The position numbers and the translations under genes were made by a program. Shown here in pieces: positions 55,081 through 64,000 of a stretch of DNA of 64,000 bases. This DNA is from Salinibacterium sp. SWN167. Its GTDB lineage: Bacteria; Actinomycetota; Actinomycetes; Actinomycetales; Microbacteriaceae. The notes beneath the pieces were generated by a model that was not told the DNA's origin, made no database searches, and saw only the letters and a list, made by a program, of their open reading frames with translations. Where the stretch lies: contig NZ_JADYWU010000001.1 of assembly GCF_015864665.1 (NCBI RefSeq), positions 310,001 through 374,000 on the forward strand, given 5' to 3'. The first letter of the stretch is position 1. Every line of letters begins with the position of its first letter.

Positions 55081-55204
55081 TCGCTAATGCTGCCATAAAT
55101 TTCCTCACGAAAGCAGGGAACGGGAGTTCCTCATCGGGACCAGTGTGCTGCTGAGTAAGCCCGATCACACACCTCGGGTCCAGGGGAGCCGTAGCATTGG
55201 GCTC

Positions 55205-55912
55205 ATGACAAAGCCCCGCGCCTCAACTTTGTGGCGCGCTGGCGTTCTTGTCGCAATCCTCGTGGCGATCGTGATCGTCGCGTTGACCGTGCAGATCCCC
55301 TCTACGGATGAGATTCACGAATGGACGAAGAGCGCAGGAAGCCCGGGGATCGCCATCTTTGTGGCTGGGTACGCGCTTCTCACGCTCACTCCGATACCGA
55401 AAAGTGTGCTCAGTATCGCGGGTGGGGTTGCCTGGGGGCTCTGGATCGGCAGTCTCATCGTGCTGATCGGCGCCCTGATCGGCGCTGCGCTTTCGTTCTG
55501 GCTCGGACGATACTTGGGGCGGGATGCCGTCGAGCACTTCACGGGCGGGCGAGTGCGCGTTGTCGATGACATGTTTCAGCGCCGGGGCCTGCTGTCGGTG
55601 ATTGCCCTACGCCTCATCCCCGTGCTCCCGTTTACCCTCATCAACTACGCCGCAGGGCTGACCGCCGTGCGCGTGCGGGATTACGCCCTCGGTACTGTCA
55701 TCGGCATCATCCCGGGGACGCTCGCGTATGTCGCGGTGGGCGCTTACGGTGCAGAGCTCAATGACGGTTTTTACTTCGCGCTCGGAGCCATCGGGGTCCT
55801 CGCGGTCGCTGGTGTACTTGTGGTCAAGCGCCTCCGCAAGGACGATCCCACGTCGCAGCTCGAGCCCATCACGTCAGCAGTCGACGAGCAGATCGTGCCC
55901 GATAAGGCCTAA
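55205..55912 (+). CDS. TVP38/TMEM64 (DedA-like) membrane protein, copy 1 (YdjX/YdjZ type)
   Basis: Membrane protein (235 aa) of the VTT/SNARE-associated family. After TM1 it has the conserved GYALLTLTPIPKSVLSIAGGVAWGLWIGSLIVLIGALIGAALSFWLGR in segments. This includes the F/WLGRYLGRD motif and a re-entrant LRLIPVLPFTLINYAAGL region. It closely resembles copy 2 at 60256-60963, so they arose by duplication. The family includes lipid scramblases and DedA transporters. ATG 55205 is chosen. It is convergent with the ABC ATPase gene. Confidence 0.87.
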   Translation: MTKPRASTLWRAGVLVAILVAIVIVALTVQIPSTDEIHEWTKSAGSPGIAIFVAGYALLTLTPIPKSVLSIAGGVAWGLWIGSLIVLIGALIGAALSFWLGRYLGRDAVEHFTGGRVRVVDDMFQRRGLLSVIALRLIPVLPFTLINYAAGLTAVRVRDYALGTVIGIIPGTLAYVAVGAYGAELNDGFYFALGAIGVLAVAGVLVVKRLRKDDPTSQLEPITSAVDEQIVPDKA

Positions 55913-55956
55913 CGCTCGGCGGGTGAGCTGTGCTGCCAGCTTCGGCGATTGCGCGG

Positions 55957-57093
55957 CTAAGAGAGAACCGTCCAGAGCGCTTCGCACGGCAGAGAAACCG
56001 TGACGGAATCGCCCGCTGCGAGAAGATTGCCGGGGGCGGCCTCGGTGCGGATCTCGGCGTCGCCGACTCGAACGAGAAGCTCGCGACGCGGGCCGCGCTG
56101 AATGGCCGAGGTGACGACGCCGTACAGCTCGCGCGGGCCCCGACTCTGGCACGCGGTGGCATCTGAATCGCGAGTGACAGGTGGCGAGGCATCCGTTCGG
56201 TTATCGGGGACGCGCGCTGAAGCAGAGACCGCTTCCTGGCGGAAGACGAGCGTTGCGGGGCCCGATTCAACCGTGGAACTGATGGCGACGGCGCCGATCG
56301 CGGAATGATGCACCCCGTTCCTGACCTCCCCGGCGAACGCATTCTTGCCGCCAAGAAGTCGAGCAACCGCGAGCGATGCCGGCCGGTGAAAAACATTGTC
56401 GACGGTGTCGTGTTGCAGCAACTGACCGTTCTCAAGGACAACGACCCGTTCGGCCATCGCGCTCGCCTCATCGCGGTCGTGGGTAACGAAGAGGATGGTC
56501 GGATTCACGGCCTCCCGGATGCTCGCAATCATGGCGTGCATCTCATCCTTGAGTCCAGGGTCGAGGGCGCTAAACGGTTCGTCGAGCAGCAGCACGGATG
56601 GCTGTGCGGCGAGAGCTCGTGCCACAGCGATTCTCTGCTGCTGGCCGCCCGAAAGCGAGTGTGGCGAGCGGGATGCGAATGCCCCCATCTGCACCAGCTC
56701 TAGGTGCTCGCGGGCGCGCTCCCTAGCCTGCCCGCGGCTGAGTCCTGCCGCGCGATCGGCGAAGGCGACATTGTCGAGAACCGTTAGATGCGGAAACAGA
56801 AGCGGGCGCTGGAACACCATCGAGATACCGCGCTGCTCTGGAAGAAGCGCGGTGACATCCCGACCGCTGAGGCGTACTTGGCCACCATTGGCATCCTCGA
56901 GGCCGGCGATGATGCGCAAGATCGTGCTCTTGCCTGAACCGCTCGGCCCCACAATCGCGGTGCTCGTGCCCGGCAAAATATCGAGGTTCACCTCGCGCAG
57001 CGCGGCAGGGGAGGCGGCCGAGTAACTCTTCGTGATGCCCGTGAGGGTGATCGCAGAGGTCTCCACGTCAGTGGTCTGGGCGTGAGTGGTCAT
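55957..57093 (-). CDS. YnjD-like ABC transporter ATP-binding protein
   Basis: ABC ATPase (378 aa). Walker A GPSGSGKST, Q-loop VFQRPLLFP, signature LSGGQQQR, Walker B VLLLDEPFSALD and the H-loop VTHDR are all present in the first 210 residues. The C-terminal 140 residues form a TOBE-like domain. It overlaps the second permease by 4 bp and is the last gene of a four-gene minus-strand operon for a YnjBCD-type transporter. It energises the permeases; the substrate is unknown. Confidence 0.88.
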   Translation of the reverse strand: MTTHAQTTDVETSAITLTGITKSYSAASPAALREVNLDILPGTSTAIVGPSGSGKSTILRIIAGLEDANGGQVRLSGRDVTALLPEQRGISMVFQRPLLFPHLTVLDNVAFADRAAGLSRGQARERAREHLELVQMGAFASRSPHSLSGGQQQRIAVARALAAQPSVLLLDEPFSALDPGLKDEMHAMIASIREAVNPTILFVTHDRDEASAMAERVVVLENGQLLQHDTVDNVFHRPASLAVARLLGGKNAFAGEVRNGVHHSAIGAVAISSTVESGPATLVFRQEAVSASARVPDNRTDASPPVTRDSDATACQSRGPRELYGVVTSAIQRGPRRELLVRVGDAEIRTEAAPGNLLAAGDSVTVSLPCEALWTVLS

Positions 57094-57974
57094 CGTTGCT
57101 TCCCTGGGTCGAGATTGCGGGTGCGAGCAATGAAGCCCAACAGAATGAGGGGTGGAATGACCGCGGAGAGCGACAACACCGCCACGCTTGATTCGTTGCC
57201 GACACCGGATGCACTTGAGGCAATGATCAGCGGCAGCGTAATCATGTGGCCGCCTCCCACCACGAGCGTGATGAGGTAATCGCTCCAGCCGACCAAGAAC
57301 GCCAAGAATGCAGAGCGTGCCAACGCCGGAGCGATTAGGGGGAGGTGGATGCGCCACAGTGTGAGCCGTGAGCTCGCCCCGAGCGTGCGGGCTGCGTCAT
57401 CGAAGCCGTCGTCATAAGCGGCGTAGGCGGCGCGCATCGAGAACGTTGTGTACGGAATCGCCACCGCAACGAGCACGAGAACGACGCCGACTGCCGGGGG
57501 TACCCACGCACGCAACAGCAGCACATTGAGGCCGAGCACCGCGGCAAACGGCGGCAGCAACACAGGAGAGAAGAGCAGAACGGTAATCGCCTTGCCGAAG
57601 CGAACGTGACCGCGCGAGAGCGCGCGGGCGGCCATCGCTCCGAGCGGGGTCGCGATCGCGGCCACTACGAGCGACAACAGCAGCGAGTGGAGGAAGGCGC
57701 GGCCGCCGCCGTTGGCGATTGCGGCGGTGAGGCCGTCGGTGCCGGCTTCCATCGGAAATGCGGCGGGGTGCATCCATTGGTTGGCGAACGACCACAGCAT
57801 GAGGGGTAAAAACGGCAGCGCAAACCACAGCGCGATGAGCGCGGTCGAGACGATACGCAGCACACGGGCAACGCCGCGAGACTGAGTCAGCGGGCTGCCG
57901 TGGTCGCCGGGCATCCGCCGGGGTGGGTGCACGACCGGCTTGTCGAGGCTGACGCTCGTGGTGCTGACGCTCAT
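57090..57974 (-). CDS. YnjC-like ABC permease (second half)
   Basis: Inner-membrane permease (294 aa) of the Fe3+/thiamine/sulfate type. A polar N-terminal tail is followed by six or more helices. The ATPase-contact loop reads DGFDDAARTLGASSRLTLWRIHLPLIAPAL. Start ATG 57974 overlaps the first permease (ATGA). It pairs with that protein; in E. coli the homologous YnjC is one fused protein, so here the two halves are separate genes (inference from family knowledge). Confidence 0.85.
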   Translation of the reverse strand: MSVSTTSVSLDKPVVHPPRRMPGDHGSPLTQSRGVARVLRIVSTALIALWFALPFLPLMLWSFANQWMHPAAFPMEAGTDGLTAAIANGGGRAFLHSLLLSLVVAAIATPLGAMAARALSRGHVRFGKAITVLLFSPVLLPPFAAVLGLNVLLLRAWVPPAVGVVLVLVAVAIPYTTFSMRAAYAAYDDGFDDAARTLGASSRLTLWRIHLPLIAPALARSAFLAFLVGWSDYLITLVVGGGHMITLPLIIASSASGVGNESSVAVLSLSAVIPPLILLGFIARTRNLDPGKQR

Positions 57975-58831
57975 TGCCACGCTCGCATTCGCCGAAGCCC
58001 GAGCATGGCTACGCCCACGATCGCCGCAGTGAGAAGCAGAGTAATCACGGCAACGGCGGCAGCCTCGGGCCGAGCGGTGAGGCTTGCCGAGTTGAATAGC
58101 CGCAGCGCCATGACCGAGAGCGGCTCGGGGTAGGTCTTGCCGAGCAACCACGCGACCTCGTAAGAACCCAGCGTGTACGCAAACGCGATAGCGGATGCCA
58201 CGAGCAGCGAAGGGGCGGCGAGCGGAAACAGCACGAGTCGTAGTCTCGCCCCGCGGCTCGCACCGAGCACAGCGGCAGTTTCGTCGTAGGACGTGATGCG
58301 GGTGGCGAGGGTGCCGACAATGATGAGCGCGACGAAGGCGGATTCTTTCCACGCGTACTCCGCGATCACGGCGAACCAGGTGGGGCCGGCGACGAGCGCG
58401 GGCCACGATTCTGGCGGGATGCCGAGAATACGGGCGAGCACGCCAGAGTCGGAGAGCAGAAGGCCGACGCTCGCAGCTCCGACGAGGTGAGGCACGGTGA
58501 CGGCCGCAGCGCTGAGTGCGCCCACGATGCGGCCACCCCAGTTGCCCGAGATGATGAGCACGGCGGTGAAGAACCCGACGACCGCAGCGATCGTGGTTGA
58601 CACGACGGCGATCCCAAGAGAAAGCAGCGCGGAGCCGAGCAGGTTGTCGGTGCTTTCGAAGGCGTCAACGCTCAACGCGGGCGTGCCCACGAGTGGCATG
58701 AGACCGAGACTTTGCACCACAGTGGTGCCGATGCCTCCGATCACTACGATCGCGACCGGAATGATCGCCGGGAGCACGAGAAGCGTGGCGCGCATCCCCT
58801 GGCGTCGCGGCCGACTCTGCACCGCCGTCAT
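57971..58831 (-). CDS. YnjC-like ABC permease (first half)
   Basis: Inner-membrane permease (286 aa) starting MTAVQSRPRRQGMRATLLVLPAIIPVAIVVIGG. The EAA-type loop is YDETAAVLGASRGARLRLVLFPLAAPSLL. Start ATG 58831 forms ATGA with the stop of the binding-protein gene. With the following permease it forms the translocation channel of the YnjB-C-D type transporter. Confidence 0.85.
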   Translation of the reverse strand: MTAVQSRPRRQGMRATLLVLPAIIPVAIVVIGGIGTTVVQSLGLMPLVGTPALSVDAFESTDNLLGSALLSLGIAVVSTTIAAVVGFFTAVLIISGNWGGRIVGALSAAAVTVPHLVGAASVGLLLSDSGVLARILGIPPESWPALVAGPTWFAVIAEYAWKESAFVALIIVGTLATRITSYDETAAVLGASRGARLRLVLFPLAAPSLLVASAIAFAYTLGSYEVAWLLGKTYPEPLSVMALRLFNSASLTARPEAAAVAVITLLLTAAIVGVAMLGLRRMRAWQ

Positions 58832-60111
58832 CAACGCGCAGCGATCGTAGTGCGCCAACCGTCATCGAGTGCAGGAACCCATTCGGCCGAGAGTTCGGGG
58901 TTGGCATTCTGCGAGAGGATGTCGAAGGTTGGCACAACAGGCGACTGCGGCAGGGCATCGAACAGGGCGCGATCATCGGCGGAAAGCGCATCCAGATCCA
59001 GCACAGTGAACTGGCCCCACACGGCAGGGTCAGCCTTCGCGACCTGCTGCTCAACCGACAGAGCCTCGTTGGCGACGACCATCGCGCCAGCGATGTTGCC
59101 GGAGTTGCTGGGGATGCCGAAGAAGCTGGCATTGCCCAGCGTTCCGTCCTCCACCGTGAGCACTCGTGTGGTCTCGGGGAGCGTGCCGTTCTCCACGAGT
59201 GCGGTGAGCGTGGCGGGACCATACGTCATCATCATGTCGATCTCGCCATCGGCAAACAGCTTCGTCAGTTGTTCCGAGGTTGCGGGATAGGTGGTGCCTT
59301 CGCGCCACAGTGACGGCGCGAGCTGGTCGAGTCGTTCGTAGAGCGCAGGGGAAAGTTCGGCGAAAGCGTCATCGCTGTAGACCGAAGGAACATTCTCATA
59401 ACCGCCCGAGACGCTGTAGAGCACCTCGCGTAAGAAAGCGGATCCCGTGAAGTCGGGAGCAGCCGGGTAGGTGAAGCGACCGGGGTTATCTTCGGCCCAG
59501 TCGAGGATGCCCTCAATGGTGGTTGGTGGGTTCGGCACCGTGGCCTCGTTGTAGACGAAGGAGAATTGCGCCTTGTGCCAGGGAGCCTCGCAGCCATCCA
59601 CAGGAGTGCCGAAGTCTTCGGTGAGCAGTGGGTCAGAGTCGGAGACCAAGGTCATGTTGGGCAGCAGATCTGTCCACTCGCAGAACCAGGCATCAGCCTG
59701 TTTGCCAGTGCGGAAGTTGTCGCCGTTGATCCACACGAGGTCAACAGCACCATCCGTATTACGGCCAGCCTGCAGCTCAGTAAAAACGCGGTTGAGCGCA
59801 TCCTTGGTGTCGGCAATCGGAACACGTTCGAGCGTGACGCCCTGCGCCGCCGCAGCTGGAGCAAGAACGTCATCAACGTACGCGTTGCCCTGATCGTCAC
59901 CGCCCCACATCCACAACTTCACGGTCTGGCCGTCGGCAGCGATCTGCACATCAGCCCAATCAAAGAACTCAGGACCTCTCGGAGTGTTTGTCGGTGCCGA
60001 GCACGCGCTCAGGGCCAACGCGGTCACTGCTGCAGTAGCAAGCACGGGGAGGATGCGGCGGCGGGCAGTGGTGGGGGAAGCCGCACGACGAAACGGTAGC
60101 CAGATCTGCAC
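58831..60111 (-). CDS. YnjB-like ABC transporter solute-binding lipoprotein
   Basis: Solute-binding lipoprotein (426 aa). Signal with Arg-rich start (FRRAASPTTARRR), hydrophobic core and the lipobox LSACSAP near residue 37. The mature part opens LWMWGGDDQGNAYVDDVLAP, followed by GVTLERVPIADTKDALNRVFTE and VDLVWINGDNF, the characteristic YnjB pattern. GTG 60111 with GGAGCACC upstream is preferred over earlier in-frame codons, which add no signal feature. The ligand is unknown; the YnjB family is uncharacterised. Divergent from the TVP38 copy 2 gene. Confidence 0.88.
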   Translation of the reverse strand: MQIWLPFRRAASPTTARRRILPVLATAAVTALALSACSAPTNTPRGPEFFDWADVQIAADGQTVKLWMWGGDDQGNAYVDDVLAPAAAAQGVTLERVPIADTKDALNRVFTELQAGRNTDGAVDLVWINGDNFRTGKQADAWFCEWTDLLPNMTLVSDSDPLLTEDFGTPVDGCEAPWHKAQFSFVYNEATVPNPPTTIEGILDWAEDNPGRFTYPAAPDFTGSAFLREVLYSVSGGYENVPSVYSDDAFAELSPALYERLDQLAPSLWREGTTYPATSEQLTKLFADGEIDMMMTYGPATLTALVENGTLPETTRVLTVEDGTLGNASFFGIPSNSGNIAGAMVVANEALSVEQQVAKADPAVWGQFTVLDLDALSADDRALFDALPQSPVVPTFDILSQNANPELSAEWVPALDDGWRTTIAAR

Positions 60112-60255
60112 GCAGGTGCTCCTAAGTAATTGAGGGCTCACGGGAAACTGTCGAGATGCCCCGCACAGCGCACTCCAGATTAAGCGCGAACAACTTATTA
60201 CTTCAGTAAGCCACATCACATACGGACTTCATAGCTCCGACATAGCATTGCTGAA

Positions 60256-60963
60256 ATGAAAAACAAACGCGCCTCAGCGCTCTGGAAAGCTGGCGCGTTC
60301 GTCGTGTTCCTCGTGGCCATTGTCATTGTGGCGTTCACGGTTGAGATTCCGAGCGTTGAAGAGATTCAAGCGGCAGCAGAAGGCACCGGCGTGCTGGGCG
60401 CCGTAATCTTCATCCTTATTTATGCGGTCCTCACCCTGACTCCAGCGCCCAAAGCCGTGATCAGTATTGCCGCAGGGCTCGCGTGGGGTCTGTGGATCGG
60501 CACCCTACTCGTGCTCGTGGGCGCCGTTATTGGGGCAGCCCTCTCCTTCTGGATCGGTCGCGTGCTCGGACGCGAAGCTGTTGAGCAGTACACGGGCGGC
60601 AAGGTTCGCGCCGTTGACGAGATGCTGCAGAAACGCGGCTTGCTCTCCATGATTGCGCTGCGCCTCATCCCTCTCATTCCTTTCACTGTTATCAACTACG
60701 CCGCTGGCCTCACCGCCGTGCGAGTGCGCGACTACATGATCGGCACCGCCGTCGGCATCATCCCCGGCACCATGGCGTTCGTCGCGGTCGGGGCCTATGG
60801 CGCTGAACTCAACACCGGGTTCTTCATCGCTCTCGGAGCGCTCGGCGTGCTCACGATCGGCGGCGGCATTGTTGCCGCACGACTGCGCAAGAAAGATGCT
60901 GCGACTGCCGCAGCCGCCGGTGATGAGGATGCCGCCAAAGAGCTCAACGCGGAGAACAACTAG
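60256..60963 (+). CDS. TVP38/TMEM64 (DedA-like) membrane protein, copy 2 (YdjX/YdjZ type)
   Basis: Membrane protein (235 aa), same length and domain order as copy 1 at 55205. The conserved core matches at most positions (LTLTPAPKAVISIAAGLAWGLWIG, SFWIGRVLGREAVEQYTGGKVRAVDEML, LRLIPLIPFTVINYAAGL, GTAVGIIPGTMAFVAVGAYG). Its stop is 2 bp before the CDP-alcohol transferase start, so the pair is co-expressed. It diverges from the YnjB-like operon. Role unknown; lipid flipping or small-ion transport are possibilities by family. Confidence 0.88.
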   Translation: MKNKRASALWKAGAFVVFLVAIVIVAFTVEIPSVEEIQAAAEGTGVLGAVIFILIYAVLTLTPAPKAVISIAAGLAWGLWIGTLLVLVGAVIGAALSFWIGRVLGREAVEQYTGGKVRAVDEMLQKRGLLSMIALRLIPLIPFTVINYAAGLTAVRVRDYMIGTAVGIIPGTMAFVAVGAYGAELNTGFFIALGALGVLTIGGGIVAARLRKKDAATAAAAGDEDAAKELNAENN

Positions 60964-60965
60964 CC

Positions 60966-61634
60966 GTGCTGGATGCCCAACTGCGCCGAGCGGTCAGTCG
61001 ACCGCTCAACGGCATGGCATCCGCCCTCGACGTGCCTTGGATCACGCCCGACCGCATCACGATCGCCGGGCTCGTTGTCGGCCTGAGTAGTGCTGCGCTC
61101 GCCGCAACGCAATGGTGGAGCCTCGCGCTCATCGCGTGGCTGCTGTCGCGAGTGCTGGATGGGCTCGACGGAACTCTTGCTCGACGGCGGCTCGCTGCGG
61201 CATCCGCTTCGGGTCGGGATGGCGTTGATGCCTCGAGCTCCGCTGCTGCGAGCCAAGCGGGCGGCTTTCTCGATATCGTCGCCGACTTCGTGGTCTACGG
61301 CGCGACGGTTCTCGGCGTTGCGATCGGTGCGACCACCGCATTCGGGGCGCCCTGGTGGCCGTTCTTGCTCGTCATGTTCAGCTACTACCTCAACGGGGCC
61401 GCGTTTCTCGCGTTCTCCTCGATAGCTGAACGCACCGGCCGAACAGTCTCAGACGAAGACAACCGCTCGCTTTTCTTCCTCGGTCGTATTGCCGAAGGCG
61501 GCGAGACGGTATTTACTCACGCACTCTGGCTGATCGTGCCGTTCTTTGCATGGCAGATCGCGATTGTGTGGAGCATCATCGTGTTCGTCAGCGCCACCCA
61601 GCGGATGATCGTCGGCTACCGCCTGCTGCGCTAG
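60966..61634 (+). CDS. YnjF-like CDP-alcohol phosphatidyltransferase
   Basis: Membrane enzyme (222 aa) beginning MLDAQLRRAVSRPLNGMASALDVPWITPDRITIAG, followed by the signature D-G-LDGTLARR and, after an inserted Ser/Ala-rich stretch of about 20 residues, GGFLDIVADF. The later LFFLGRIAEGGETVFTH matches the YnjF subgroup. All four signature aspartates are present, so activity is plausible, but the insertion falls inside the motif between AR and G. The start is GTG 60966, 2 bp after TVP38 copy 2. It shares CTAG with the convergent flavoenzyme stop. Confidence 0.85.
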   Translation: MLDAQLRRAVSRPLNGMASALDVPWITPDRITIAGLVVGLSSAALAATQWWSLALIAWLLSRVLDGLDGTLARRRLAAASASGRDGVDASSSAAASQAGGFLDIVADFVVYGATVLGVAIGATTAFGAPWWPFLLVMFSYYLNGAAFLAFSSIAERTGRTVSDEDNRSLFFLGRIAEGGETVFTHALWLIVPFFAWQIAIVWSIIVFVSATQRMIVGYRLLR

Positions 61635-63070
61635 TCTTTCGGCTTTCCCAACGTTGCCCGGCGAACCCGAGCCAACAGTTGGATAGCTGACTTCACGACG
61701 CCGCTCTTCAAACGGTATTGAACGTCAGCGATGGCCGCATTCCAGAGGGCATCGCTGAAGGTCGGGTAGGCGTGGGTCGCCGAGGCGAGCGCGCTCGTGG
61801 AGAGTTTCGCGCTGACGGCGAGTGTGAGCTCTCCGAGGCTTTCGCCCGCGCGCGGTCCGACGATGGTGCCGCCAAGTACCCGGCCGCGAGTATCGACGAC
61901 GATCTGCGCGAAACCCTCTTCTTCACCTTCGGCAATGGCGCGGTCCGTTGAGAGGTGTTCGCCGGTGTAAACGCGGTGCTTGCCGGGCACGGCATCCGCC
62001 GCGGTGATACCGACGGCTGCGATTTCGGGCGAGGTGAACGTGACGCGGGGCACGAGCTGGTCATTGAACTTGCGGCGTAGGCCCAGGGCCGCGTTGGTGC
62101 CTGCAATACTGCCGCTTACTCCGGCGATGTGGCTAAACTTTGGCAACCCGGCGGCGTCGCCGGCCGACCAGATGTGCGGGTTGGAACTGCGCAGCGAGGC
62201 ATCGACATCGATGAATCCCTCGGCCGTGATGTTTACGCCAGCGGCCTCGGGGGCGAGAGTCCCCACCCGGGTTGAGCGTCCGATCGCGGCAAGCAGGCGG
62301 TCGAAGGGCACACGGCTGCCGTCGTCGAGCACGAGCTCTCCGGCTAGTCCGTCGGTCGAGATGACCTCGGCGGCAGAGCGGCCGTTGAGCACGGTGATGC
62401 CGTCGCCGTCGAACGTCGCCTGCAGGATGCTGCTGGAACGCTCATCCTCAGTGGGAAGGATGCGGTCGCGGCGGTTCACAATCGTCACGGCGGAACCGAG
62501 TCGGGCCATTGCTTGGCCGAGTTCACTTGCGATCGCACCGCCGCCCAGCACGACGAGGCGGGGTGGTAGTTCGTCGAGTTCCCAAATGCTGTCGCTCGTG
62601 AGCATCTCGATGCTGTCGGTGCCGGCGAACTTGGGGAGGCGCGGTTCGGTTCCCGTCGCGATCACGGCCTGCACGAACGTGTGGCGAGTGCCATCGATTT
62701 CTAGCGAGTGGCGGCCAGTAAAGTGAGCATCCCCGTGGATGACCTCGATGCCGAACTCGGCAAAAGCCTCGGCGGAATCGTGCGGCTCGATCGTGGCAAT
62801 CGCATCCTCGACGTGCCCCATCGCCCGCGCAAAGTCGATTGTTACGTTGTCGGCGGTGATGCCGAAGCGTTCAGAAGTCCGCATGACGTGAGCGGCATGC
62901 GCTGTAGCGATCAGTGACTTCGAGGGAACGCAGCCGGTCCAGAGGCAGTCCCCACCGAGGCGGTGGCGTTCGACCATCAACACCCGTGCACCGAATCGGG
63001 CGGCGGTCTTGCTAGCGACAATTCCGGCGCTGCCGGAGCCGATGACGATGAGATCCCACTGAGCGGGCAT
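61631..63070 (-). CDS. Dihydrolipoamide-dehydrogenase-like disulfide oxidoreductase
   Basis: FAD- and NAD(P)-binding enzyme (479 aa). GSGSAG starts the FAD domain, the redox disulfide is in GGDCLWTGCVPSK, and a second Rossmann motif GGGAIASELGQAMA binds NAD(P). The C-terminal catalytic His is in THAYPTFSDALW. The sequence type is the mercuric-reductase/Lpd-like group often found next to TVP38 proteins, not the 2-oxoacid dehydrogenase E3 itself, as no E1/E2 genes are nearby. ATG 63070 follows AGGAACACGC. Physiological disulfide substrate unknown. Confidence 0.85.
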   Translation of the reverse strand: MPAQWDLIVIGSGSAGIVASKTAARFGARVLMVERHRLGGDCLWTGCVPSKSLIATAHAAHVMRTSERFGITADNVTIDFARAMGHVEDAIATIEPHDSAEAFAEFGIEVIHGDAHFTGRHSLEIDGTRHTFVQAVIATGTEPRLPKFAGTDSIEMLTSDSIWELDELPPRLVVLGGGAIASELGQAMARLGSAVTIVNRRDRILPTEDERSSSILQATFDGDGITVLNGRSAAEVISTDGLAGELVLDDGSRVPFDRLLAAIGRSTRVGTLAPEAAGVNITAEGFIDVDASLRSSNPHIWSAGDAAGLPKFSHIAGVSGSIAGTNAALGLRRKFNDQLVPRVTFTSPEIAAVGITAADAVPGKHRVYTGEHLSTDRAIAEGEEEGFAQIVVDTRGRVLGGTIVGPRAGESLGELTLAVSAKLSTSALASATHAYPTFSDALWNAAIADVQYRLKSGVVKSAIQLLARVRRATLGKPKD

Positions 63071-63182: not shown

Positions 63183-63932
63183 ATGGCTACCGAAACTAAC
63201 GTGAACACCGTTCCTGCTGACGCTCCCCGCTACGACGGGCTGAAGGCCGTCTTCATCAACTGCACGCTCAAGAAGAGCCCCGAGATGAGCCACACCCAGG
63301 GCCTCATGGATTCAAGCATCCAGCTGATGCGCAGTGCCGGAGTGCACGTCGATAACGTGCGCTTCATCGACCACGACGTTGCCATCGGTGTCTACCCCGA
63401 CATGCGCGAGCACGGCTGGGAGAAGGATGCCTGGATGGACGAAGTCTGGCCTCTTATCGAAGCGGCCGACATCCTCGTCATCGGTGGACCGATCTGGCTG
63501 GGCGACAACTCCTCTGTCACCCGGATGCTAATCGAGCGTCTCTACGCGATGAGTGGCGAGTTCAACGACAAGGGCCAGTACGTGTTCTATGGCAAGGTCG
63601 GCGGCGCGCTCTTCACCGGCAACGAGGATGGCGTGAAGCACTCCGCCATGTCGGTGCTCTACAGCCTTCAGCACATTGGCTACGTCATTCCTCCCGCAGC
63701 GGATGCTGGCTGGCTCGGCGAAATCGGCCCCGGCCCCAGCTACCTCGACGAAGGCTCGGGCGGCCTCGAGAACGACTTCACGAACCGCAACACGACCTTC
63801 ATGTCGTGGAACCTCATGCATTTGGCATCGATCCTCAAGAACGCCGGCGGTATCCCCGCTTACGGAAACACCCGCAAGGCGTGGAACGACGGCGAGCACT
63901 TCGGCTTCGAAGCTAACCCCGAGTACCGGTAA
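63183..63932 (+). CDS. Flavodoxin-fold NAD(P)H-dependent FMN reductase-like protein
   Basis: Flavodoxin-like protein (249 aa). LKAVFINCTLKKSPEMSHTQGLMDSSIQLMRSAGVHVDNV gives the phosphate loop and helix, EAADILVIGGPIWLGDNSSVTRMLIERLY the second flavin-binding loop, and KVGGALFTGNEDG the third. Such proteins bind FMN and act as NAD(P)H:quinone or flavin reductases. It is divergent from the disulfide oxidoreductase gene, with a 112-bp gap, and runs towards the window end. Confidence 0.85.
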   Translation: MATETNVNTVPADAPRYDGLKAVFINCTLKKSPEMSHTQGLMDSSIQLMRSAGVHVDNVRFIDHDVAIGVYPDMREHGWEKDAWMDEVWPLIEAADILVIGGPIWLGDNSSVTRMLIERLYAMSGEFNDKGQYVFYGKVGGALFTGNEDGVKHSAMSVLYSLQHIGYVIPPAADAGWLGEIGPGPSYLDEGSGGLENDFTNRNTTFMSWNLMHLASILKNAGGIPAYGNTRKAWNDGEHFGFEANPEYR

Positions 63933-64000
63933 CCCTCAAGTGAGCATGTCATGATGGATCCGTGCGGCGAGAGAGTGGCGTCAGCCCCCCTGGCGGGCGA

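Follow-up and report, generated by a model that had tools for sequence, protein, structure and literature searches.

In a 64,000-nucleotide stretch of the Salinibacterium sp. SWN167 genome (the window), eight adjoining genes between positions 55205 and 63070 encode two TVP38/VTT-domain membrane proteins, a complete YnjBCD-type importer, a YnjF-type CDP-alcohol phosphatidyltransferase, and a flavoprotein whose nearest relatives are dihydrolipoamide dehydrogenase (Lpd) and mercuric reductase (MerA). We conclude that these genes very probably form one functional unit. YnjBCD and YnjF genes were found within 10 kb of each other in four phyla (Actinomycetota, Pseudomonadota, Bacillota, and Chloroflexota) in different gene orders, and in several species TVP38 and the flavoprotein were fused into one protein.

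Co-occurrence of the module genes across bacteria

A scan of named genomes with a YnjB profile gave 588 loci, of which the best 80 were analyzed; many contigs stopped inside the 10-kb flanks, and some of the named loci that were counted had themselves contributed to the profiles of YnjF, TVP38, and the flavoprotein. A YnjF-family gene was present in the flanks of 28 of these 80 loci. Among these 28 are loci from Actinomycetota and Alphaproteobacteria as well as from a Chloroflexi bacterium (L064) and Cohnella (Bacillota, L113). TVP38 was found at 17 of the 28 YnjF-positive loci versus 1 of the 52 YnjF-lacking loci, and the flavoprotein at 19 versus 2. On a midpoint-rooted YnjB tree with 89 rows, the midpoint had loci with YnjF plus TVP38 or the flavoprotein on either side. 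The module label required 10 changes on this tree, all forced by well-supported branches, compared with 23 in shuffles. The module is clustered on the YnjB tree, yet it has been gained or lost repeatedly.

Plasmid loci were also analyzed (six of the 40 matches listed in one search and five of the 50 listed in another). Five of the first six carried YnjBCD with YnjF (Paracoccus, Aliiroseovarius, Klebsiella, Rhizobium, and Catenovulum), as did four of the other five (Pseudoalteromonas, Falsirhodobacter, Metabacillus, and a second Klebsiella); a Deinococcus plasmid locus carried YnjBCD alone. In Metabacillus, the genes for TVP38, the flavoprotein, YnjB, two permeases, the ATPase, and YnjF stood in a row on one strand.

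A separate sample of 396 Actinomycetota genomes, in which YnjF-family proteins scored at least 159 bits and other CDP-alcohol transferases at most 109, contained YnjB in 37 genomes, YnjF in 28, and both in 22 (Fisher P = 4e-21, not corrected for kinship). The YnjB count comprised 36 proteins over the cut-off and one fragment below it (G256); a 95-bit match (G372) was not counted. The two genes lay within 10 kb of each other in 16 of the 22 double-positive genomes, including that of SWN167 (G000), and were on different contigs in five of the other six. All 12 YnjF loci without a nearby YnjB and 8 of the 16 adjacent loci were then compared. The flavoprotein (>300 bits) was present at 6 of the 12 and at all eight adjacent loci, and TVP38 at 3 of the 12 and all eight, with one of these matches weak (39 bits). 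Four of the 12 loci were contigs of 3 to 7 kb, and some showed pieces of other ABC transporters. YnjF and the flavoprotein occurred together in four genomes where no YnjB was found (G409, G212, G340, and G169) and also, with an ATPase alongside, in G250. YnjF therefore accompanies the flavoprotein even where YnjB was not found.

The distance matrices of YnjB, YnjF, TVP38, and the flavoprotein were correlated with r values of 0.80 to 0.87 (24 to 36 shared loci per pair), and none of 2,000 permutations reached such values. Shared species history contributes to these correlations, but they argue against independent acquisition of each gene. A preliminary description of this DNA had proposed that selection keeps the genes together, and had allowed that the families might not co-occur beyond Escherichia coli relatives and this genome or that each gene might have been acquired separately. 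Neither alternative was borne out by the spread over four phyla, the co-occurrence in the 396 genomes, and the agreement of the distance matrices; the varied gene orders and a co-occurrence far above chance strengthened the proposal of selection.

Gene arrangement and conservation in relatives

The seven genes named in the preliminary description were all found where it had placed them. The four minus-strand genes encode, in transcriptional order, the YnjB-type solute-binding lipoprotein (58831 to 60111; NCBIfam NF008633, 454 bits against a cut-off of 203), permease 1 (57971 to 58831; BPD_transp_1, 35.6 bits), permease 2 (57090 to 57974; BPD_transp_1, 50 bits), and the YnjD-type ATPase (55957 to 57093; ABC_tran). 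They overlap by 1 to 4 bases and make up the complete importer set. On the plus strand lie TVPa (55205 to 55912; PF09335, 112.9 bits), TVPb (60256 to 60963; PF09335, 105.3 bits; cut-off for both, 33.9), and YnjF (60966 to 61634; PF01066, 29.2 bits, cut-off 22), which starts two bases after TVPb. The flavoprotein gene (61631 to 63070, minus strand) overlaps the end of YnjF by four bases with its 3' end. This eighth gene belongs to the recurrent set and had been underrated in the preliminary description.

Conservation was examined in 60 genomes, namely that of SWN167, 26 others of the genus, and 33 further relatives. YnjB (over the cut-off) and YnjF were each present in 11 genomes, and the 11 were identical: SWN167, nine other genus members, and G043, which belongs to another family of the order. 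Because 10 of the 27 genus members carry it, the module is an accessory unit in the genus. At all ten other module loci (G005, G009, G010, G015, G017, G020, G023, G025, G026, and G043), TVPb adjoined YnjF, with both divergent from YnjBCD, and the flavoprotein was nearby. The second copy, TVPa, was found at only five of these ten, so that the pair of TVP38 proteins, originally presented as part of the system, is not a conserved feature. In 26 of the 60 genomes, we looked for an empty site; the AKR and FMN reductase genes that flank the module were not adjacent in module-free genus members, and no empty site was shown. Two side observations were made among these loci. In G015 (L035:8130-9394), the YnjB-type gene was broken into two overlapping frames, which may reflect a frameshift, a fault of the assembly, or a true lesion. 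At L028 and L033, where TVPa is missing, the gap from the AKR gene to the ATPase held a frame of about 260 amino acids that, read from the sequence, looks acyltransferase-like.

The flavoprotein and its fusion to TVP38

The flavoprotein contains Pyr_redox_2 and dimerization domains and a CLWTGC redox pair, and it shares with MerA and Lpd the architecture of a two-domain flavin disulfide reductase with a redox cysteine pair. The C-x4-C pair was present in all 28 flavoproteins of the examined loci, two of which came from loci without YnjF. The window protein has a tyrosine at the position of the Lpd catalytic-base histidine, as does MerA, and a motif search found the same tyrosine in 21 of the 28 flavoproteins, with 7 unmatched. 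Its C terminus (...ARVRRATLGKPKD) is without a cysteine pair; MerA carries vicinal cysteines at its C terminus. Assignment as MerA was rejected because the protein scored 338.5 bits against the TIGR02053 cut-off of 454.45. Dihydrolipoamide dehydrogenase was rejected on the score for TIGR01350 (327 against 408.8 bits) and on the tyrosine.

A Klebsiella protein combined a VTT domain (residues 68 to 184) and the reductase (residues 239 to 685) in one chain, and the same fusion was annotated in Paracoccus, Catenovulum, Falsirhodobacter, and Burkholderia glumae; a full-length match to the fused protein implies a fusion in Pseudoalteromonas too. These bifunctional TVP38/FAD-dependent oxidoreductases have the same two domains as the separate pair in the window, and they adjoined YnjBCD and YnjF in Klebsiella, Paracoccus, Catenovulum, and Falsirhodobacter; in contrast, the window and Metabacillus carry two separate genes. 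Redox chemistry had been suggested earlier as a possible contribution of the Lpd-like gene, and the fusions standing beside YnjBCD and YnjF strengthened this idea. Fusions of COG0398 proteins to flavoprotein domains have been noted before (PMC10127716, cited here, like the other papers, from part of its text), and a link to YnjBCD and YnjF did not appear in the part of that text consulted. As a separate observation, the B. glumae plasmid stretch (L149, 6911 to 13275) carried the fusion and no YnjBCD or YnjF. It also held bufferin-type genes, an FAD oxidoreductase, TIGR04282 and TIGR04283 glycosyltransferases, and an MTA phosphorylase, and this set may be an alternative module.

The YnjF transferase and the TVP38 proteins

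The YnjF motif DxxDGxxAR...GxxxDxxxD was intact in the window protein and invariant in 31 aligned members. Among solved structures, the model of YnjF (pLDDT 90) was nearest to AF2299, Mycobacterium tuberculosis PIPS, and IPCT-DIPPS, and YnjF has the fold and the catalytic motif in common with PIPS and AF2299. However, in a profile alignment the ERPER stretch of PIPS (6h53) aligned with EGTET in YnjF, and no inositol-phosphate family cut-off was reached. The arginines of ERPER presumably bind the acceptor phosphate in PIPS, and because the stretch reads EGTET, the acceptor of YnjF is probably not inositol phosphate. PIPS proper was rejected as an identity for YnjF on this stretch and because the window protein gave no PIPSynth match at E ≤ 0.001; a Klebsiella relative scored 44.9 bits against the PIPSynth cut-off of 170.

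TVPa and TVPb are 30 to 36% identical to E. coli YdjX and YdjZ. They are 68% identical to each other and are recent paralogs from a recent duplication, whereas YdjX and YdjZ, which are old paralogs, share 26%. The two copies are not counterparts of YdjX and YdjZ. The undecaprenyl-phosphate transporter UptA was tried and rejected for both (NF052604, 29.8 and 21.8 bits against a cut-off of 250). VTT proteins of COG0398 have been proposed as possible phospholipid scramblases, with a call for experiments, and have been tied to aerobic metabolism (PMC10127716, in part). By their resemblance to YdjX and YdjZ, the window proteins may fall under the same proposal.

The YnjBCD importer

The YnjB sequence contains a lipobox-like ALSAC, and its structural model (pLDDT 90) was nearest to binding proteins of polyamine, iron, thiamine, dinucleotide, and sugar types at 13 to 20% identity. 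The best fold match was Salmonella stm0429, which we take to be a binder of 2-aminoethylphosphonate (2-AEP). Because the matches are so broad, the ligand cannot be named. A profile search with YnjB gave one weak match, to an agropine permease (E = 0.0073), and the top NCBIfam matches of the ATPase were PotA and PhnT2, both under their cut-offs.

Three side observations concern YnjBCD elsewhere. At L088, L095, L107, L121, and L125, YnjBCD without YnjF had DhaK-type kinase and epimerase-like genes as neighbors, and nucleoside-hydrolase-like genes were present at some of these loci; within the YnjB family, they may form a branch that imports nucleosides or sugars. In Halanaerobacter (L109, 6235 to 17002), YnjBCD and TVP38 without YnjF stood beside NF045663 ("diclust_near_Sec"), TIGR04282, a GT2 glycosyltransferase, and a kinase-like gene. 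On a Klebsiella plasmid (L151, 16485 to 18020), the permease was annotated in two pieces, and in one piece in the related L044.

Comparison with the E. coli K-12 locus

In E. coli K-12, the order ydjX-Y-Z-ynjA-B-C-D-E-F occupies one 8-kb stretch, in agreement with the statement in the preliminary description that ydjX and ydjZ, ynjB-C-D, and ynjF share a neighborhood. As in the window, TVP38 proteins, YnjB, YnjC, YnjD, and YnjF are encoded together. The window proteins are 38% (binding protein to YnjB), 32% (transferase to YnjF), and 37% (ATPase to YnjD) identical to their E. coli relatives, and permeases 1 and 2 are 30% and 27% identical to parts of YnjC. In contrast to the window, the E. coli locus has YdjY, YnjA, and YnjE in addition, and YnjC is a single long permease.

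The description of the system as undescribed was too strong. One paper lists ydjXYZ-ynjABCD as directly activated by FNR (PMC3688515), another handles ydjX to ynjE as one eight-gene operon (PMC8921622), and TVP38-flavoprotein fusions are also in print (PMC10127716). The statement that no function is published agrees with our search of the open-license literature, in which no functional study of YnjBCD-YnjF was found. The transporter is termed uncharacterized both where YnjBCD is reported as enriched in a Marinobacter clade (PMC9207381) and where COG4134 appears in a table on Tat substrate prediction (PMC3305326).

Neighboring genes and rival explanations

Several other families accompanied YnjF among the best 80 of the 588 YnjB loci. 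An ECF sigma factor was found at 10 of the 28 YnjF-positive versus 1 of the 52 YnjF-lacking loci, and three families were found at none of the 52: a radical SAM protein (10 of the 28), a TIGR03169-type oxidoreductase ("Nterm_to_SelD"; 5), and an AhpD-like protein (3). The radical SAM protein kept CxxxCxxC in 9 aligned members, one of which matched TrsS weakly (26 bits, cut-off 490). TrsS is a radical SAM selenoprotein with a neighborhood of its own (Haft and Tolstoy 2025, cited in the part of PMC13188914 consulted). The YnjF loci resemble that neighborhood in this radical SAM protein and differ from it in that the window's genome is without selD over the cut-off. Bufferin-type genes (DUF2282, DUF692, and DoxX) adjoined the fusion on the Paracoccus, Klebsiella, and B. 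glumae plasmids and in the second Klebsiella copy; bufferins are described as copper-stress peptides in the part of PMC12452194 consulted.

These neighbors bear on the strongest rival to a lipid-making function, in which TVP38 and YnjBCD would move a metal(loid) or a sulfur or selenium compound, the MerA-like flavoprotein would reduce it, and accessory enzymes and YnjF would make an organic or lipid-bound form. We regard this reading as possible, though doubtful. The MerA-like tyrosine, the TrsS-like radical SAM protein, and the bufferin-type sets beside the fusion are consistent with it, as are TIGR03169 neighbors (333 bits in Paracoccus, over the cut-off of 310; 287 in Klebsiella, under it) and an ArsM-like methyltransferase at one Streptomyces locus (196 bits, cut-off 263). 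The same holds for NF045663 and TIGR04282, over their cut-offs, beside the Halanaerobacter YnjBCD, and for TIGR04282 and TIGR04283 annotated beside the B. glumae fusion. However, the flavoprotein falls short of the MerA cut-off and ends without the cysteine pair, and the accessory genes are patchy, with the radical SAM protein at only 10 and Nterm_to_SelD at only 5 of the 28 loci. The two simplest forms of this rival were not supported. Selenium use through SelD, suggested by the TIGR03169 and TrsS-like neighbors, was rejected: of 19 genomes (E. coli not among them), only 8 had a selD match over the cut-off, and the best score in the window's own genome was 42 against 125 bits. An arsenosugar route through ArsS, suggested by the TIGR04282, TIGR04283, and ArsM-like neighbors, was rejected as well. 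TIGR04167 (model name rSAM_SeCys), which we take to be ArsS, passed in 0 of the 19 genomes, with 22 bits as the best score in the window's own.

An alternative is that the genes share only their induction by redox, chlorine, or copper stress and serve separate pathways, namely import, membrane maintenance, and thiol repair. ECF sigma, AhpD-like, and HAD neighbors fit such a stress-response neighborhood, as do the TetR, redoxin, and MsrAB genes annotated nearby at plasmid loci and the AhpC/TSA gene directly after the Nterm_to_SelD gene in Cohnella. A tighter link is nevertheless implied by the TVP38-flavoprotein fusion, by the unbroken row of genes in Metabacillus, and by how often YnjF and the flavoprotein occur together, and we consider separate pathways unlikely.

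Proposed mechanism

As the best mechanism for the module we tentatively put forward, at rather less than an even chance in the form stated, an inducible envelope unit that makes a lipid. YnjBCD would import a small polar solute, and YnjF, as a CDP-alcohol phosphatidyltransferase of the PIPS/AF2299 fold, would couple the imported alcohol or a derivative to CDP-diacylglycerol. The product would be a phospholipid whose head group is unusual. TVP38, as a VTT protein, would shift this lipid or a precursor across the membrane, and the MerA-like flavoprotein, fused to TVP38 in several species, would reduce its substrate at the inner face using NAD(P)H. Control of the CRP/FNR or ECF sigma type would turn the set on. 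The scheme builds on observed features (the genes, their co-occurrence, the fusion, the intact motifs of YnjF and the flavoprotein, and regulator genes nearby); from these we infer which solute enters, which lipid results, what TVP38 does and in which direction, what the flavoprotein reduces, and which regulator acts. The shared lipid or phospho-alcohol pathway of the preliminary description is plausible.

A more specific version is unlikely: the VTT branch, the MerA-like flavoprotein (fused or adjacent), and YnjF would form a pathway of their own for building, reducing, and translocating a phospholipid not described so far, with a head group imported by YnjBCD and possibly redox active or bearing a metal(loid) or chalcogen. 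If true, it would be the first pathway assigned to this VTT branch. The recurrent partners include a head-group transferase that looks active, an importer complete with binding protein, and a flavin reductase. They make a role of the VTT family testable, and since E. coli K-12 has a version under FNR control, tests are possible in a laboratory strain.

Several observations weigh against one lipid-making unit. YnjF was not in the flanks of 52 of the best 80 YnjB loci, and 9 of the 28 YnjF loci had neither TVP38 nor the flavoprotein there; L090, L099, and L100 are short contigs. In G133, YnjB and YnjF are 540 kb apart, and in E. coli the flavoprotein is not beside the operon. The lipid scheme leaves the radical SAM and Nterm_to_SelD neighbors unexplained. 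Moreover, activation by FNR in E. coli is hard to square with the tie between COG0398 and aerobic metabolism (PMC10127716, in part). Finally, several YnjF-lacking YnjB loci lie amid catabolic genes (nucleoside hydrolase, dihydroxyacetone kinase, and epimerase), and hydantoinase-type genes adjoin a Roseobacter-type group that does have YnjF, so that YnjBCD may be an importer that has been taken up for many different tasks.

The catabolic surroundings raise a further alternative, that the locus is an import cassette for solute catabolism with YnjF and TVP38 as incidental hitchhikers. When flank families were compared (sets from 27 of the 28 YnjF loci and a control set reduced from 150 to 130 genes), GntR, IclR, and AsnC regulators and amidohydrolases were the commonest at YnjF-lacking YnjB loci (4 to 5 of the 130 genes each), and enzymes of nucleoside or sugar type were present at some of these loci. 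Such a cassette is already disfavored and seems to us very improbable: the families co-occur in four phyla with varied gene orders, and YnjF is accompanied by the flavoprotein in genomes where YnjB was not found.

Flanking genes and a putative regulatory element

Two genes beyond the flavoprotein are of uncertain membership. An NADPH-dependent FMN reductase-like gene (63183 to 63932, plus strand; PF03358, 31.3 bits) adjoined the flavoprotein at 9 of the 10 loci of relatives, G043 being the exception. A CRP/FNR-family regulator gene starts on the plus strand at 63951 and continues past the end of the window at 64000 to about 64730. Its product is 98.8% identical to a protein of cluster c9, which carries cNMP_binding and HTH_Crp_2 domains, and the regulator gene was present at 10 of 10 module loci of relatives (module loci only were considered).

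A putative cis-element of 19 bases, AGTAAGCC-N2-ATCACA-N-AC, matched exactly twice on the plus strand of the window, once before each TVP38 gene: upstream of TVPa (55154 to 55172) and in the divergent YnjB/TVPb promoter region (60205 to 60223). With three mismatches allowed, 3 of 100 shuffles gave two or more matches. The same two sites were the only exact matches in the 3.0-Mb genome, where one more site had two mismatches; the reversed element, as a control, gave one match within two mismatches. A sigma-70 promoter scan returned 0 sites. The core GTA-N2-CC-N2-ATCACA was present in 9 of 9 aligned genus sequences, the window included, and missing from the G043 and Microbacterium enclense loci. 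Duplication of the gene may by itself have carried the element along, TVPa and TVPb being paralogs; the presence of the element in G023, where TVP38 is 56% identical, argues for a function. That the CRP/FNR-family regulator binds this element is a guess. In addition, the core was present three times in G009 (L030).

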